Origin: Colwellia polaris
GTDB lineage: Bacteria > Pseudomonadota > Gammaproteobacteria > Enterobacterales > Alteromonadaceae
Reading direction: 5' to 3'
NCBI RefSeq assembly: GCF_002104515.1
Contig: NZ_NBOE01000005.1
Location: forward strand, 62,001 to 126,000
DNA: 64,000 nucleotides
In this document: positions 2,438 to 7,620 of the stretch, piece after piece
How positions within the stretch are numbered: position 1 is the first letter of the stretch
Layout: each line of letters begins with the position of its first letter
Position numbers and translations under genes: made by a program
The notes under the pieces: model-generated
The model's database searches: none
Seen by the model: only the letters and a program-made list of their open reading frames with translations
What the model was told of the DNA's origin: nothing

Positions 2438-2536
2438 ACATAACAAGGCACTCAAAAGGACAAATAACAGTTGGTTTTTGCTCCTTCGTCGCTTATTTTA
2501 ACCAACTATTATTTGCCTCTTAGTGGGGCGTTAGCA
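2438..2536 (+). repeat. attC site 1 (integron recombination site)
   Basis: It begins ACATAACAAGGC (R'' box) and ends GGGGCGTTAGCA (R' box, cleavage expected between G and TT). The inner arms CAAATAACAGTTGGTT and AACCAACTATTATTTG pair with one unpaired base, and the outer part AGGCACTC...CTTAGTGGGG follows the usual attC layout. The central loop carries TGCTCCTTCGTCGC. Sites 2-5 share the same architecture. Confidence 0.9.
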
Positions 2537-2552
2537 TGCACAAGGAGGCTTC

Positions 2553-2825
2553 ATGAAAATTTGCGAAGATTGCAGTAATAAAATTACTTATGCTAAGTTG
2601 TTTTTTGCTGTTAGGTCTGTGAAATGTTCAGGATGTGGTGCTAAGTACAAAGTTAATATTGGCAGTTATATCGCCTTTATTGTAATAGTTGGCCTCGCCT
2701 TATTAGCAATAGATTATTCTATAGTTGTTTTATCAGGCGTATCACAGGTGCTGTCAATTATTGCTATTTTCGTGTGTATATTTATTGTGGCTCCATTTAA
2801 TCAGAAGCTGGTAAAGTGCAGCTAA
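2553..2825 (+). CDS. Cassette gene 2: zinc-ribbon membrane protein (CXXC...CXXC)
   Basis: A 90-residue protein with an N-terminal pair of CXXC knuckles (CEDC at residues 3-6, CSGC near 26-29) followed by two hydrophobic helices (about residues 37-58 and 62-82). The layout matches the small cysteine-pair/two-TM proteins often seen in integron cassettes (the cxxc_20_cxxc type). The function is unknown; a small inner-membrane protein with a cytoplasmic zinc knuckle is likely. A strong AAGGAGG site precedes the ATG. The stop codon overlaps the first bases of attC 2. Confidence 0.7.
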   Translation: MKICEDCSNKITYAKLFFAVRSVKCSGCGAKYKVNIGSYIAFIVIVGLALLAIDYSIVVLSGVSQVLSIIAIFVCIFIVAPFNQKLVKCS

Positions 2826-2924
2826 CAAGTAGCTTAAGCGGGACAAAATAAAGTTGGCTTTTTGTTCACTACGTTCACTTATTTTAGCCAACATTATTGT
2901 TGCCCCTTAGCTGGGGCGTTATGT
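2820..2924 (+). repeat. attC site 2
   Basis: It starts AGCTAACAAG, overlapping the stop codon of the preceding gene, and ends GGGGCGTTATG. The inner arms AAGTTGGCT and AGCCAACATT pair, separated by a loop with TTCACTACGTTCAC. It has the same architecture as attC 1. Confidence 0.88.
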
Positions 2925-2943
2925 TTACTCAAGGAGTCGAGTT

Positions 2944-3135
2944 TTGCCTAAATATCAAATACCAAAATCTCCAGGTGAATTCCAAATAATCGAATCCTAT
3001 GCAGGCACGCCTTTAATCTGGAATCACAAAAAGGGTAAAGGTAAAGTATCAATCCCTTGTCGAGATTGGGATCACGCAGAAGAAATATTAGAGAAACTTA
3101 AAGAGTTTAAAAAAGGTGGGGAGCTTTGGGTATAG
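2944..3135 (+). CDS. Cassette gene 3: hypothetical 63-residue protein, TTG start
   Basis: A small soluble lysine-rich protein that I do not recognise. The start is TTG, chosen because AAGGAG lies about eight bases upstream (2930-2935) and no ATG is available. The middle has a PLIWNHKKGKGKVSIP segment and the C-terminal half is a predicted helix rich in E and K. The cassette boundaries are exact: its start GTTATGTTTAC (from 2918) is fully complementary to GTAAACATAAC at the start of attC 3. Confidence 0.6.
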   Translation: MPKYQIPKSPGEFQIIESYAGTPLIWNHKKGKGKVSIPCRDWDHAEEILEKLKEFKKGGELWV

Positions 3136-3165
3136 TTTTCTTATAATTTACAGTAGTCTATGTAA

Positions 3166-3262
3166 ACATAACAAGGCAATTCAACGGGACTAAAAACAGC
3201 GGGCTGTTCGCTACGCTCCATTTTAGCCCACTATTTTTAGCCCGTTAATATGGGCGTTATGT
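3166..3262 (+). repeat. attC site 3
   Basis: It begins ACATAACAAGGC and ends GGGCGTTATGTG. The inner arms CAGCGGGCT and AGCCCACTA pair imperfectly around a loop containing GTTCGCTACGCTCC. The R' extension GTTATGTGCCT is complementary to the start of attC 4, which fixes the borders of cassette 4. Confidence 0.88.
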
Positions 3263-3277
3263 GCCTAGGATGGTGTC

Positions 3278-3745
3278 ATGAAATATCTAATATATTCGTT
3301 TCTTATAATATGTTCTTTAAATGCTTTCGCTCAAGATCATAATTGGATTCTGAGAGCTAAAATTGAAACTATGAGAAGTAATGATCAAATTTGGATTAAT
3401 GATAAAGGTGACTTTTATTGGGCTACGTCAATGTTTCATGATTCAATGCCTTGCAGCACTACTCTTAATGAAAGTGAATTAATTGAAGTATCAGCATTAA
3501 TTCAAAGTTTACCTTCGGTGCCATACGAAAGAGATTTCAATAATCAGTGTAAAGATGGCCTTCGCTTCTTTATATTATCTTCATCAAAGCAAGGTGATGG
3601 TACTACTTTAGAAGTTGGTAAAAAATTTCCAGCATCAAAGGACTGTCGGATTAATGCCATAGATAAAGCTTGGGATGATTTAAGTGAAAAGCTATATGTA
3701 TTAACTCAAGAAAAATTCAAATCTTGTAGAGGTGGTTCGTGGTAA
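3278..3745 (+). CDS. Cassette gene 4: exported hypothetical protein
   Basis: A 155-residue protein with a clear Sec signal peptide (MKYLIYSFLIICSLNAFA, cleavage predicted before QDHN), so it is probably periplasmic. The mature part has four cysteines (in MPCSTT, NQCKDG, KDCRIN and KSCRGG) that could form two disulfides. I recognise no family. The cassette is bounded by GTTATGTGCCT (3256) and AGGCACATAAC (3747-3757), which are exact complements, so the gene was acquired as one integron cassette. Confidence 0.65.
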   Translation: MKYLIYSFLIICSLNAFAQDHNWILRAKIETMRSNDQIWINDKGDFYWATSMFHDSMPCSTTLNESELIEVSALIQSLPSVPYERDFNNQCKDGLRFFILSSSKQGDGTTLEVGKKFPASKDCRINAIDKAWDDLSEKLYVLTQEKFKSCRGGSW

Positions 3746-3750
3746 CAGGC

Positions 3751-3851
3751 ACATAACAAGCCACTCAAGCAGGACTTTTAACAGTTGGTTAGGTTCCGCT
3801 TCGCTTCACATTTTAACCAACAATTAAAAGCCTCTTAGTGGGGCGTTGAAG
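3751..3851 (+). repeat. attC site 4, interrupted at its R' box by a MITE
   Basis: It starts ACATAACAAGCC and reaches GGGGCGTT at 3840-3847. The inner arms CAGTTGGTT and AACCAACAA pair. Instead of GTTATRY-type sequence, the CGTT is followed directly by the end of a 176-bp MITE, and the expected CGTTATATAGC continuation appears after the MITE at 4024. Confidence 0.85.
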
Positions 3852-4023
3852 CTGTAGAATTTCTCCAAACTGAAAAATGGCGTATGATTTTTCTGTTAGT
3901 ACAGCCTTTAAAGTTCACTTTTTAGTGGAGTATTGCCTCAGAATGCACATAGCAACGCAATTTGAGGCTTAATTTTTAATAAATTTTGAGGCTGTTTTTT
4001 CTAAAATAGAAATTCTACAGCCT
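3848..4023. mobile_element. 176-bp IS1182-type MITE, copy 1
   Basis: The ends are GAAGCTGTAGAATTTCTCC and, in inverse orientation, AGAAATTCTACAGCCT; 14 bp are perfectly inverted. The element is flanked on both sides by CGTT, the core of the attC R' box. It encodes no protein. Copies 2 (5610-5785) and 3 (6127-6302) have exactly the same length, and copies 1 and 3 are nearly identical. The ends match the end of the IS1182-family remnant at 5087-5605, so this is probably a derivative mobilised by that IS. Confidence 0.85.
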
Positions 4024-4045
4024 CGTTATATAGCACAAGGATGGT

Positions 4046-4465
4046 ATGCGCGTAATTCTAATCTTGGTAATATTCCTCTTATCTAGTTGTTCTAGAGTTC
4101 ACCACGATCCGATTGGAAAGTTTTACTTTTCAGTTGAAAAAATTAGTAAAGAAGAGTTAATTACTGAATTAGATGCGTTTTCGTTAGTACACAATCTAAT
4201 TAAGCAATCAGAAGGTGGAGAGCATCACCTACCAGAAAAATCTGATGTCATTGTTTCTGCCTATTATAAGAATGAAAGTGACATAGCTATTTTGATCAAT
4301 AATTATTTAAATAAAAATTGTTATTTTGCGGCGGCTTATGATTATTCAAAAAATAATTTGGAGGTTGCACGTCAAATTGCAACTCAATTAAATAGTGAAT
4401 TAACTCGGAGGTTTAGTGAACGTATTAGTTTCCACTCAGAACCTCATTGTAAAAGTGCTATATAA
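4046..4465 (+). CDS. Cassette gene 5: putative lipoprotein
   Basis: A 139-residue protein with a lipoprotein signal (MRVILILVIFLLSSC; lipobox LSSC, lipidated cysteine at residue 15). The mature domain is hydrophilic, with an IAILINNYLNKNC segment, and is otherwise unrecognised. AAGGA lies six bases before the ATG. The cassette starts at GTTATATAGC (4025), which is complementary to GCTATATAAC at 4457-4466, the R'' start of its own attC; the rest of that attC is lost where a GACAC-type repeat begins. Confidence 0.6.
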   Translation: MRVILILVIFLLSSCSRVHHDPIGKFYFSVEKISKEELITELDAFSLVHNLIKQSEGGEHHLPEKSDVIVSAYYKNESDIAILINNYLNKNCYFAAAYDYSKNNLEVARQIATQLNSELTRRFSERISFHSEPHCKSAI

Positions 4466-4472
4466 CAAGAAG
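4457..4472 (+). repeat. Remnant of an attC site (R'' box only)
   Basis: GCTATATAACAAGAAG is complementary to the cassette start GTTATATAGC at 4025-4034 and is followed by AAG as in the other attC sites. The remainder is replaced by a repeat beginning AATTAAAAGGACACCC. It is read as an attC destroyed by insertion or recombination. Confidence 0.6.
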
Positions 4473-4590
4473 AATTAAAAGGACACCCATCCTAAATTGA
4501 AATTACTGAACTCTGGACTAAACTAAGAAAATCCCATATCGCTGTTATGTGATTAGATTTTATTTTTAGAGTGAGTGTCATTATTAATTT
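4473..4590. mobile_element. GACAC-type repeat element (REP/RAYT-like), copy A
   Basis: About 117 bp running from AATTAAAAGGACACCC to GAGTGTCATTATTAATT; the ends are imperfect inverses sharing ATTAA and GACACYCA. The interior CCTAAATTGAAATTAC...ACTAAACTAAGAAAA recurs at 6841 and 6946. One relative at 6831-6880 lies just before a MATPRKQ start, a typical N-terminus of REP-associated tyrosine transposases, which suggests the family. No coding sequence. Confidence 0.6.
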
Positions 4591-4755
4591 TCCGATTTTA
4601 AACACCATAAAGTCAACAAGTCCTTACTTGAGGCTTAAACTTGCCAGAAAATTGATGTATTAGTATAGCTTGGGCCTAAAATGTTAATTTCGTTTCTATT
4701 CTTTGTCAAAACTGTCATTTGGTCATGACAAAGAGCAAGATATTATAATATCGAT

Positions 4756-4803
4756 GTTATGTGATTAGATTTTATTTTTAGATTGAGTGTCATTATTAAT
4801 TTA
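4756..4803. repeat. Partial second copy of the GACAC-type repeat (right end)
   Basis: GTTATGTGATTAGATTTT...GAGTGTCATTATTAATTT repeats 4543-4590 with one mismatch. It ends exactly where the displaced yjdM-end repeat starts. The 165 bp between the two copies (4591-4755) hold no recognisable gene. Confidence 0.7.
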
Positions 4804-4942
4804 GCTAAGTTTGTAAAAAAAGCCTAACTGAAAATATCTATCATCATGTATTTACTTTATAACATTTGTGAAGCTAAAACTGATATTGAGACTGCATCTT
4901 CCTGTTCGTAATTTAGTTTATGTAAGAACTGCAGCAAATTAA
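4803..4942 (+). repeat. 140-bp direct repeat, displaced copy of the yjdM 3' end
   Basis: Identical to 1722-1861 and cut off from any gene. It is squeezed between the right end of one GACAC-type repeat (ending 4803) and the left end of another (starting about 4936), as if carried by those elements. Confidence 0.9.
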
Positions 4943-5078
4943 TAATTAACAAAGACACCCACCGTTATTTTTTGAAACTAAAGCCACGCAGGGGCTTTAT
5001 TTTTGGTTGTTTTTGAAGCCAAAGAGGTGATGTAATACCTCGGTTTCTGAAGTATTTAGAATGAGTGTCTCTTTAATT
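4936..5078. mobile_element. GACAC-type repeat element, copy B
   Basis: The left end AATTAATAATTAACAAAGAC continues into ACCCACC; the right end GAATGAGTGTCTCTTTAATT is its imperfect inverse. The interior includes ACGCAGGGGC and AGGTGATGTAATACCTC, a short stem. No coding capacity. It abuts the truncated transposase at 5087. Confidence 0.5.
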
Positions 5079-5086
5079 CTTTCTAT

Positions 5087-5407
5087 TTAAATGACTGCCG
5101 GTTTTGCCCACTGCAAAAGCAATGTATGCGAAAGCCGCCCAAATCAACCGGTCGACAAGTCCAGTTCTTAAAGAACCTGGTACAAAATGTCAGTTACAGT
5201 GACCGAATGAAGGTAAAAATAGACAGCCCCATTGGACGACGGCAGTACAGTAAAAGATTAGGCGCAATCGAACCGGTATTTGGCAATATCACGGTCAATA
5301 AAGGCATGAATAAATTCACTTTGCGTGGACAAGATAAAGTGAATACCCAATGGAAAATGTATTGTCTTGTTCATAATATTGAAAAGTTAAGAAACAATCT
5401 GCATTAG
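5087..5407 (+). pseudogene. C-terminal fragment of an IS1182-family transposase
   Basis: Only about the last 106 residues remain. The fragment opens with the cysteine cluster CRFCPLQKQC read in frame before the first ATG (5126). It continues with the conserved tail containing KVKIDSPIGRRQYSKRLG and IEPVFGNI and ends in HNIEKLRNN, diagnostic of IS1182-type DDE transposases. The N-terminal and catalytic parts are missing; the break coincides with the end of GACAC repeat copy B. A full-length family member has roughly 450-500 residues. The fragment cannot be an active transposase. Confidence 0.85.
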
Positions 5408-5605
5408 AGCCTAAAAGCCCAACATCACACGAAAAACCAGCCTCAAAACGACATAAACCTCTTAATCAACACCCTTAATAAACCTTTAACGATGCAAAAA
5501 TAAAAATCGTCCAAAAACGTAAACGTTTTTGATTGTTAAAAGAAAATAATCCAGTTAGAGTATTTTGATTAAAAATTATATAAAAAACGAGTAATTCTAC
5601 AGGCT
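5087..5605 (+). mobile_element. Right-hand remnant of an IS1182-family insertion sequence
   Basis: It comprises the transposase fragment, about 180 bp of AT-rich 3' sequence and a terminal GAGTAATTCTACAGGCT followed by CGTT (5606-5609). That end is the inverse of the GGGTGTAGAATTACTC start of MITE copy 2, which directly follows, so IS and MITE share terminal repeats. The left end of the IS is gone. Confidence 0.75.
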
Positions 5606-5609
5606 CGTT

Positions 5610-5785
5610 GAGGGTGTAGAATTACTCCAAAGTAGAAAATGGAGGGCGATTTTTGTGTTCATACAGCCGTTAAAAGTCATTTTCTAGTTGGATATTGCCT
5701 CAGATTTCACGTAGCAACGTAATTTGAGGCTTAATTTTTAATAAATTTTGAGGCTGTTTTCTCAAAAAGAGAAATTCTACAGGCT
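5610..5785. mobile_element. 176-bp IS1182-type MITE, copy 2 (divergent)
   Basis: Same length and CGTT flanks (5606-5609 and 5786-5789) as copies 1 and 3, but with many substitutions. Its start GAGGGTGTAGAATTACTCC matches the neighbouring IS remnant better than the other copies do. After the right CGTT the sequence continues AGGT, giving R' box GTTAGGT for the next cassette. Confidence 0.82.
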
Positions 5786-5807
5786 CGTTAGGTTAATAAG
5801 GAAATTT

Positions 5808-6029
5808 ATGAGTATCGTTGGACGAATTGCTCAACTAATTATTGGTATTGTAATAGGTTGGTATGGATTTACACTGGTGTCAGAGGATGGTTCAGATATA
5901 TTCACTTGGATAGCAGTGCTTATAGGTGCAGGTTCGGTTTTGTCCGCCTTGTTTCCTGATATTTTCGACATATCGACTGACCAAGGAGATAGCGGCTCTA
6001 CTAGTGACTCTGGCGGTGACGGAGATTAA
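5808..6029 (+). CDS. Cassette gene 6: small membrane protein
   Basis: A 73-residue protein. The start at 5808 is preferred because AAGGA precedes it; a longer in-frame reading from 5748 would begin inside the MITE. It has two hydrophobic helices (about residues 6-24 and 32-47) and a C-terminal tail rich in Asp, Ser and Gly (SGSTSDSGGDGD). No family recognised. The cassette start GTTAGGT (5787) is the exact complement of ACCTAAC at the start of attC 5, which confirms the cassette borders on either side of the gene. Confidence 0.6.
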   Translation: MSIVGRIAQLIIGIVIGWYGFTLVSEDGSDIFTWIAVLIGAGSVLSALFPDIFDISTDQGDSGSTSDSGGDGD

Positions 6030-6032
6030 TTA

Positions 6033-6126
6033 ACCTAACAAGCTAATTAATAAGGACAAAAAACAGTTGGCTGTTTTCGTTCCTCAACATTTTAGCCAAC
6101 AATTTTTTGCCCATTATTAGGTCGTT
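6033..6126 (+). repeat. attC site 5, interrupted at its R' box by a MITE
   Basis: It starts ACCTAACAAGC and ends TTAGGTCGTT at 6117-6126. The inner arms ACAGTTGGCT and AGCCAACAATT pair. The CGTT is followed by the end of MITE copy 3; the continuation CGTTATAAGG appears after the MITE. Confidence 0.85.
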
Positions 6127-6302
6127 GAAGCTGTAGAATTTCTCCAAACTGAAAAATGGCGTATGATTTTTCTGTTAGTACAGCCTTTAAAGTTCACTTT
6201 TTAGTGGAGTATTGCCTCAGAATGCACATAGCAACGCAATTTGAGGCTTAATTTTTAATAAATTTTGAGGCTGCTTTTTCTAAAATAGAAATTCTACAGC
6301 CC
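6127..6302. mobile_element. 176-bp IS1182-type MITE, copy 3
   Basis: Nearly identical to copy 1 (I see about two differences) and of the same length. It is flanked by CGTT at 6123-6126 and 6303-6306. It lies in the R' box of attC 5 in the same orientation as copy 1. Confidence 0.85.
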
Positions 6303-6317
6303 CGTTATAAGGTAAAA

Positions 6318-6812: not shown

Positions 6813-6826
6813 TTTCCTTAAAAATT

Positions 6827-6990
6827 AACAGGACACCCACCCTAAATTGAAATTACAGAACACTAAACTAAGAAAACCCCACAACATTATCTCAGGTGAG
6901 TTATGGCTACGCCAAGGAAGCAGAACAAATTAACAGGACACCCATCCTAAATTGAAATTACAGAACTCTGGACTAAACTAAGAAAACACC
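6827..6990. repeat. Two GACAC-type repeats around a RAYT start fragment
   Basis: TTAACAGGACACCCACC at 6826 and TTAACAGGACACCCATCC at about 6931 each begin a roughly 55-bp unit with the CCTAAATTGAAATTAC interior also seen at 4491. Between them lies GTGAGTT and an ATG (6903) reading MATPRKQNKL before running into the second repeat. The units look like the upstream region of a RAYT gene present twice. Confidence 0.6.
6903..6950 (+). pseudogene. N-terminal stub of a REP-associated tyrosine transposase
   Basis: Only MATPRKQ is family-like, the usual opening of RAYT (Y1) transposases. The frame then passes into the next GACAC repeat and stops after 15 residues. The HUH motif and catalytic tyrosine are absent. 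The call rests on a short match and its repeat context. Confidence 0.4.
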
Positions 6991-7112
6991 ACGACAAATA
7001 ATCCGATTAAAGTATCGATATTTCAATGCGCATTGCCGCTTTATGGATAAATCTTTTCATATCAGAGCGATTTAAGCCTGACAATCAGCATGGTTGAAGA
7101 ATTAATGATAGT
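6991..7112. other. Non-coding remnant between repeats
   Basis: No intact gene. The reverse strand can be read for about 25 codons (including RSDMKRFIHKAAMRIE, ending at a stop near 7000) as what may be the tail of a lost protein, but I cannot name it. Confidence 0.3.
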
Positions 7113-7345
7113 TAACCTGAACTCTGGATAAGCAGCACTTGCTCAATACTCCCTTTTAAGCCATTTTCTGCGTTAAAACGTCGATAAATAGCGCGCTATT
7201 CATAAACGTTTTGCCTTGGAAATGGTATAAAATGAAGCATTGATGATATCTATTCGTGATGTTCACCTGGCTATAGCATTTACTTTATTACCTAAGCTTT
7301 TGTTTCACTTGAGTTTCAAGCACTCATTATCCAGAGTTCAGGTTA
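7113..7345. mobile_element. 233-bp MITE (family 2), copy A
   Basis: It begins TAACCTGAACTCTGGATAA and ends with the exact inverse TTATCCAGAGTTCAGGTTA. The outermost TA on each side suggests a TA target duplication. Non-coding. A second copy follows two bases later and a third lies at 27879-28112; a partial one is at 52287. Internal features shared by all copies include GCAGCACTTGCTCAAT and CGTGATGTTCACC. Confidence 0.82.
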
Positions 7346-7347
7346 GC

Positions 7348-7565
7348 TAACCTAAACTCTGGATAAGCAGCGCTTGCTCAATACTCCCTTTTAATCCATT
7401 ATCTGCGTTAAAACGGGGATAAATTGCGTGCTATTCATAAAGGTTTTGCCATTGTAAATGGTATAAAATGAAGCATTGATGGTGTTTATTCGTGATGTTC
7501 ACCTTATTAACCTAAGTTTTTGATTCACTTGAGTATCAAGCACTCATTACTCAGAGTTCAGGTTA
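7348..7565. mobile_element. 218-bp MITE (family 2), copy B
   Basis: In tandem with copy A, separated by GC. It starts TAACCTAAACTCTGG and ends CAGAGTTCAGGTTA. It lacks about 15 bp present in A and C (the CTGGCTATAGCATTTAC part). It is followed by GTTATGTGC, which resembles a cassette boundary, but no matching attC start was found after the next gene. Confidence 0.8.
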
Positions 7566-7620
7566 GTTATGTGCAATATAGATTCAAGCGTACTGAACTC
7601 AAAATATTTAAAGCAGAACA

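Follow-up and report, generated by a model that had tools for sequence, protein, structure and literature searches.

Miniature inverted-repeat elements at integron attC sites of Colwellia polaris and their probable origin in an attC-specialised clade of IS1182-type insertion sequences

Integrons are a main device by which bacteria shuffle gene cassettes. The stretch considered here, a window of 64,000 nucleotides from Colwellia polaris (contig NZ_NBOE01000005.1, positions 62,001 to 126,000), contains an array of small cassettes in which lie three copies of a miniature inverted-repeat transposable element (MITE), five attC sites as counted by a covariance model, and the remnant of a longer insertion sequence (IS) of the IS1182 type (Table 1). 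Two of the three copies begin at the very base where an attC ends. The three copies are very probably non-autonomous derivatives of a clade of IS1182-type insertion sequences that has specialised on integron attC sites, a reading drawn from comparison of sequences.

Table 1. Features of the cassette array, in positions of the window
Feature	Position	Strand	Remarks
Element-free attC, same array	2438..2537	+	found with model R1
Element-free attC, same array	2820..2925	+	found with model R1
Element-free attC, same array	3166..3263	+	found with model R1
attC before copy 1	3755..3847	+	R1 match 3751-3852, 90.4 bits; R' box GTT, then MITE
MITE copy 1	3848..4024	+	177 bp; ends GAAGCTGTAGAATTTC / GAAATTCTACAGCCTC
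Right-hand GTT of copy 1	4025..4027	+	left GTT 3845-3847; GTTATA opens the next cassette
Remnant of the parent IS1182-type element	5081..5606	+	transposase C-terminus (ORF 5126-5407); right inverted repeat 5589-5606
MITE copy 2	5610..5786	+	in tandem behind the right end of the IS remnant and GTT (5607-5609); right GTT 5787-5789
Cassette 3' of copy 2	5790..6036	+	relatives in L200 (84% identical) and L199 (86%)
attC before copy 3	6037..6126	+	R1 match 6033-6131, 90.5 bits; R' box GTT, then MITE
MITE copy 3	6127..6303	+	177 bp
Right-hand GTT of copy 3	6304..6306	+	left GTT 6124-6126

The copies have no gene of their own, the longest open reading frame (ORF) listed entirely inside the MITE being of 31 amino acids, and a sigma-70-like site that could serve as an outward promoter was not found between window positions 3700 and 4120. 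Copies 1 and 3 are 98.9% identical across 176 positions, and copy 2 agrees with copy 1 at 147 of 177 positions. As is expected of MITEs, they are short, bear terminal repeats, lack a transposase, occur in many copies (10 matches each in genomes G000 and G006, fragments counted) and have an autonomous relative with the same ends (locus L042). The ORF in the IS remnant encodes the C-terminus of a DDE_Tnp_1_6 transposase. A preliminary description of this DNA had reported three copies of equal length at 3848, 5610 and 6127, and they are present at these places; its length of 176 bp has to be corrected to 177 bp by the symmetrical ends, and the repeat on both sides is GTT rather than CGTT, because the inverted repeat (GAG...CTC) ends with the C that precedes the right-hand GTT. 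It had also held that copies 1 and 3 split an attC junction, which the model places exactly, whereas copy 2 stands behind the end of the IS and not at an attC.

The R' box of an attC reads GTTRRRY, and the integron integrase cuts it at G/TT. The attCs were sought with a covariance model, R1, made from 30 sequences (100 positions, 25 base pairs) and trained only on attCs without an element so as to avoid circularity. An R1 match that ends four bases into an element means that the element starts directly after the GTT of the attC; the matches before copies 1 and 3 end four bases past the element's first base and hence mark exact junctions. The genome of the window has 30 attC matches (E up to 0.01), whereas CGTT that is not part of an attC occurs at about 34,700 sites, a figure extrapolated from 161,548 bases; the placement of the copies at attCs is more than chance. 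An integron integrase above the cut-off was not found within the window, which holds a weak match of 24.4 bits (cut-off 265); elsewhere in this genome, a different contig carries a full-length integrase (C12:601742-602689, 463.1 bits).

An intact parent of the MITE is present in a congener (G014), where L042 carries at 2918-4778 an IS of 1861 bp with the MITE end motif, terminal inverted repeats as in the IS1182 family and a transposase of 509 amino acids. An attC immediately precedes it, with an exact junction (R1 92.7 bits), and the attC habit belongs to the autonomous IS too, not to the MITE alone. The transposase scores 257.9 bits with the IS1182 model NF033551, which is far ahead among the four models listed; as this is under the cut-off of 270, the wording 'IS1182-type' is used. 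With Pfam it matches DDE_Tnp_1_6 (98.9 bits, cut-off 25.1) and DUF772 (54 bits, cut-off 23.1). A putative DDE triad (D142, D303 and E465), assigned from motif context, is invariant in 11 of 11 aligned transposases, those with a stop or frameshift having been excluded from the alignment. These transposase models agree with the IS1182 origin guessed at in the preliminary description. The genome of the window itself yielded this transposase in fragments only.

Insertion sites were surveyed in three sets of loci. Set A was made up of loci of the genus that were detected with the MITE (6 of 17 genomes had a match) or with the fragment of its transposase. Set B comprised 37 loci found by the transposase in named genomes of Colwellia, Psychromonas, Pseudoalteromonas, Psychrosphaera, Thalassotalea, Marinomonas and others, and set C comprised 87 loci at which the inverted repeat by itself was matched, from 39 of the 395 family genomes scanned; the reversed pattern, as a control for set C, gave 0 matches. 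Sets B and C were gathered blind to the flanks and overlap in some insertions, and for G006, G139 and G259 set C holds copies among the matches listed. Loci that duplicate set A (L097-L101) were omitted from the scan, and an end-motif match due to chance (L089 6214) from the count of left ends. The totals of 93, 73 and 61 given below are those after removal of redundant flanks. Elements were paired by script as nearest convergent ends, 29 of the 80 pairs being at least 300 bp long, and in the tally of 143 ends the model-positive ends are left ends by definition.

Most insertions are at an attC, at one place and in one orientation, which is the behaviour of an attC specialist. With R1, an attC lies within 2 bp of one end in 68 of the 80 paired elements, of both ends in 0 and of neither in 12; when pairs with identical 60-bp flanks are merged, 61 of 73 are at an attC. 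Among 143 left-type ends 121 are R1-positive (93 non-redundant) and 22 negative, and the junction is exact to the base in 117 of the 121. The preliminary description had considered a chance association, with most copies away from attCs and between unrelated flanks; the left ends placed at an attC by the model, joined by about ten more by eye, run the other way. No attC in the opposite orientation was found within 12 bp of the 264 element ends scanned. When the transposases of set B are turned to the plus strand, 28 of 28 model-positive ends are on plus, and the side next to the attC is hence the one where the transposase starts.

The elements fall into length classes of 145-147, 175-178 and 199-201 bp, and the IS are mostly of 1.76-1.91 kb. 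The clade with the attC habit comprises close relatives and, at its far end, a fragment of 49% identity in a metagenome-assembled genome of Spongiibacteraceae (L092, where the attC is a by-eye call); Pseudoalteromonas piscicida also belongs to it (L206, with an R1 match of 56 bits and an exact junction). A search of plasmids gave no match to the MITE; the transposase matched 1,542 plasmid records, five at 60-80% identity and the others lower. In G006, three MITEs of the same sequence (L046 7242, 8848 and 10192; identical over the 184-186 bases aligned) are at three different attCs, which is a recent spread.

It could be argued that insertion is unselective and that survivors are seen only at cassette borders. 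Cassette arrays are mostly silent DNA and hence tolerate insertions. Selection, however, cannot fix the exact base and the orientation, and other intergenic DNA would be tolerant as well; the attCs that were hit are scattered along the chromosome in G006, G259 and G139. Six loci of distant IS1182-type relatives (in G002, G006, G012 and G014) are moreover without any R1 match. Survival alone is an extremely improbable account of the pattern.

The 22 R1-negative left ends are of several kinds. Four are in tandem behind the right end of another element (window 5610, L046 9028, L066 2037 and L136), and ten stand at divergent attCs recognised by eye (L063, L068 365, L070, L092, L121, L135, L140, L142, L151 and L161 518), L063 and L142 with a partial or shifted R1 match. 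Two keep the 3' half of the attC only (L052 6252 and L104), and the remaining ends are taken up below with the points that tell against attC specialisation. In addition, fragments with the right end of the MITE only precede cassettes at places where an attC would be expected (L009 19650-19698, L014 9608-9655, L010 18949-19105 and L056 about 1718-1760); they are possibly deletions, or MITE ends that have replaced an attC.

Of the 61 non-redundant attC-anchored pairs, 54 have GTT/GTT as the triplets outside the left and right ends, one has ATT/ATT, and six have two unlike triplets. A purine follows the right-hand triplet in 60 of 61 pairs, in keeping with the remainder of an R' box. The GTT is accordingly taken as a probable 3-bp target duplication. 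An insertion of the IS200/IS605 type with a carried GTT cleavage site had been prompted by the right-end hairpin and was rejected, as the transposase is of the DDE type and one pair is ATT/ATT, though L134 may have a carried GTT. At a further locus (L204), examined to see whether an ATT target is doubled, no right end was found. The cassette behind copy 2 is present in 3 of 390 genomes, the window's own included. Its kin in another genus (G067, L200) stands straight after an attC with no element, and this empty site gives a precise boundary; in G005 (L199) its kin stands behind a MITE remnant, and hence element and cassette can be inherited or moved together.

The constant orientation and the exact cassette boundaries would come for free, as would the GTT, if the MITE and the IS were themselves integron cassettes, or part of one, inserted by the integron integrase, and an integrase above the cut-off of TIGR02249 is present in 9 of 10 genomes checked. 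A cassette, however, needs an attC at its 3' side, and among the 61 non-redundant elements 0 carry an attC within the final 120 bp; hence they are not cassettes moved by IntI, and this candidate was rejected. The units, moreover, have terminal inverted repeats, the full-length form has an IS1182-type transposase, and the hairpin at the right end, by reading, is without an AAC partner for the GTT. A cassette origin is therefore very unlikely.

A separate matter is what the transposase reads in an attC. A matrix of the 16-bp joint gave a leave-one-out median of 20.2 bits and suits most targets, as these share CTTA....GGCGTT. The joint is rich in information (C..TTA....GGCGTT), and in 161,548 bases not one non-attC site attained the median score. 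This would suit a transposase that reads, in double-stranded DNA, a short motif (roughly GGCGTT, preceded by CTTA) that happens to be fixed in the R' and L' boxes, the hairpin being irrelevant. Such a short-motif reading, which rivals the use of structure and not the attC habit, is possible if rather doubtful. The joint scores below 12 in 14 of 93 targets, a level that about 329 non-attC sites per genome equal or exceed, and below 9 in 8 of 93, with about 1,179 sites at that level. Yet the only positive-scoring non-attC insertions found, two half-attCs aside, are L076 (10.4) and L144/L147 (4.7), that of L167 being far below zero. The target bodies, too, are only 58% identical at the median. 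Since low-scoring targets are matched by many unused non-attC sites, recognition seems to extend beyond the 16-bp joint, at least where the attC is divergent.

Structure may be part of what is recognised. The folding z, relative to shuffled sequence, of the 100 nt before the target has a mean of -2.5 (n=93; 62% below -2) against 0.06 for right flanks (n=116). The fold signal is a property of attCs as such and no proof that the enzyme uses the fold; it does place the attC targets with the palindromic or hairpin targets reported for some members of the IS1182 family. For example, passages of PMC5678879 and PMC4923244 describe IS1272 and TnSha1, members of this family in staphylococci, as targeting hairpins, IS1272 without a sequence consensus, and as deleting them in whole or in part with no duplication. 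The elements described here are like them in family and in hairpin targets; they differ in that IS1272 removes hairpins of many sequences and makes no duplication, whereas here the attC is chosen and kept and the GTT is doubled. Recognition of the hairpin, as the preliminary description suggested, is plausible for the present elements.

Other IS1182-type elements (ISPmo1, ISPpu20, one of Sulfurimonas, and copies in the genus) share the transposase family and, in most of those read, the CTGT end motif; unlike the present clade, they have about 25% identity to the parent transposase and no copy read at an attC. An attC was not found adjoining the copies read of ISPmo1 (two sites), ISPpu20 and the Sulfurimonas element, all at about 24% identity; at one ISPmo1 copy (L213) an R1 match of 23 bits (E 0.00045) ends some 60 bp from the element. 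ISPmo1 next to intI1 on two Pseudomonas putida plasmids (L209 and L212, 768-2460) was a promising candidate and was dropped, as its ends are not at an attC; the two regions are 100% identical over 2,352 bases and perhaps represent one event. In G002, the ends and flanks of a distant IS1182-type element (L228, 1248-1298 and 3030-3080) form a 51-nt inverted repeat that is 71% complementary; this element seems to be inside a palindrome, in agreement with the reported taste of IS1182-type elements for palindromes.

Two kinds of mobile element are known to settle at attCs. The IS1111-attC group (ISKpn4 and ISPst6) was reportedly described by Tetu and Holmes in 2008 and by Post and Hall in 2009. Group II introns combine a ribozyme with a reverse transcriptase, and nothing similar was found in the IS or the MITE. 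Group IIC-attC introns, according to passages of PMC8876359, use attC hairpins and are in this respect alike. The IS1111-attC group, cited in passages of PMC12444791 and PMC11187229, resembles the present elements in that an IS goes to a fixed place at one end of the attC, and passages of PMC11187229 state that ISKpn4 and ISPst6, of the IS1111 type, do so with a guide RNA. That group has a DEDD transposase and sub-terminal repeats (passages of PMC11187229), in contrast to the DDE transposase, the terminal inverted repeats and the GTT on both sides found here; the best models for the present transposase are IS1182 and DDE_Tnp_1_6, not those of the IS1111/IS110-type DEDD enzymes. The best reading of these comparisons appears to be an attC-specialised IS1182-type clade, analogous to the IS1111-attC group with a different enzyme. 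No description of an attC-directed IS1182-type element was found in the open-licence literature, as covered by titles, abstract starts and some passages; the finding is real, general in this host group and unreported as far as the literature was searched.

Insertion would proceed as follows. The DDE transposase, which probably makes the insertions and mobilises the MITEs as well, would join the element at the GTT of the R' box, the triplet that holds the cut point of the integron integrase, would double this GTT and would set the left end towards the attC. Once the element is in place, GTTGAG is read at the attC, and hence the R' box keeps GTTRRR; the attC in front would retain its hairpin and a readable R' box made of the GTT and the GAG of the element. 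The element would become the first part of the next cassette, and the two could travel together. Carried further, the proposal is that the transposase is a structure-guided specialist of integrons, which reads more of the attC than the joint, namely its folded form, cuts at the triplet of the integrase, leaves the attC usable and lets itself and its MITEs ride on the next cassette, this being the third independent solution to attC parasitism after the IS1111-attC group and the group IIC-attC introns. In this full form the proposal is tentative, a serious possibility that is still somewhat short of probable.

Several observations weigh against specialisation on attC or against parts of the mechanism. 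Ten of the attCs are by-eye calls and thus a matter of judgement. Among the R1-negative left ends, two are damaged and beside another repeat (L049 5036 and L055), and four, representing three sites, are not recognisably at an attC, namely L076, L144 with L147 (one site in two genomes) and L167. The L144/L147 site, immediately 3' of a gene's stop codon, is possibly a short attC. L076 as a clean off-target insertion was dropped, as its flanks read as two different genes and the empty site is not reconstructable. In Catenovulum adriaticum (L208, 1669-3126, outside the counts), a relative of about 62% identity has its attC-facing end 3' of the transposase, the attC-like sequence being a by-eye call with no R1 match; this may be an exception to the rule of orientation. 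Six of the 61 pairs have unequal flank triplets; one of these (L009 17804/19694) joins the ends of two broken copies, and L134 (TTT/GTT) would be explained equally well if the element carried a GTT. The majority of targets fall into one attC class sharing the CTTA....GGCGTT joint, so that a longer sequence may be what is read. G006 has its ten MITE matches and no close transposase, and it is only the products of transposition that are seen.

A conventional DDE transposase with a near-absolute preference for attCs would lend itself to probing when, and at which places in the cell, attCs are folded. Its habit would account for cassettes with MITE leaders in marine arrays, and it would represent convergent evolution of attC targeting by a different enzyme. 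It further allows a test of whether the targeting of hairpins reported for IS1272 is a general IS1182-type trait that has been narrowed to attC in one clade.

A second lodger was noted at attCs. This element encodes a tyrosine recombinase of 300 amino acids and an IS91 transposase (361 bits, cut-off 125), and its end GAACGAAGC abuts the opposite end of the attC, where it sits behind CTTGTT, the reverse of the R'' box AACAAG. Among the junctions read in G006, G014 and G142 (L231 714, L232 706, L233 673, L234 3536, L235 727, L236 778, L237 3083, L238 1114, L239 2290 and 5391, L240 2045, 6192 and 9178, and L042 2825), 13 of 14 have an R1 match at the same 3-base offset, L240 9178 being without. 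TTTGTT stands at the other end in all eight copies read there. In G014 a single attC (L042 2822-2922) has the IS91-type element at its R'' box and the IS1182-type element at its R' box. A limited search, covering parts of the literature, gave no description of an IS91-type attC element.

The array of the window has other repeats as well. Those at 4475-4610, 6820-6990 and 7100-7570 lie between cassettes and are of the form GGACACCCA..CCTAAATTGAAATTACAGAAC, along with a longer pair. Likewise, the 3' end of the gene at 1411-1746 recurs within the array together with the DNA behind it (about 1722-1880 and 4803-4942).

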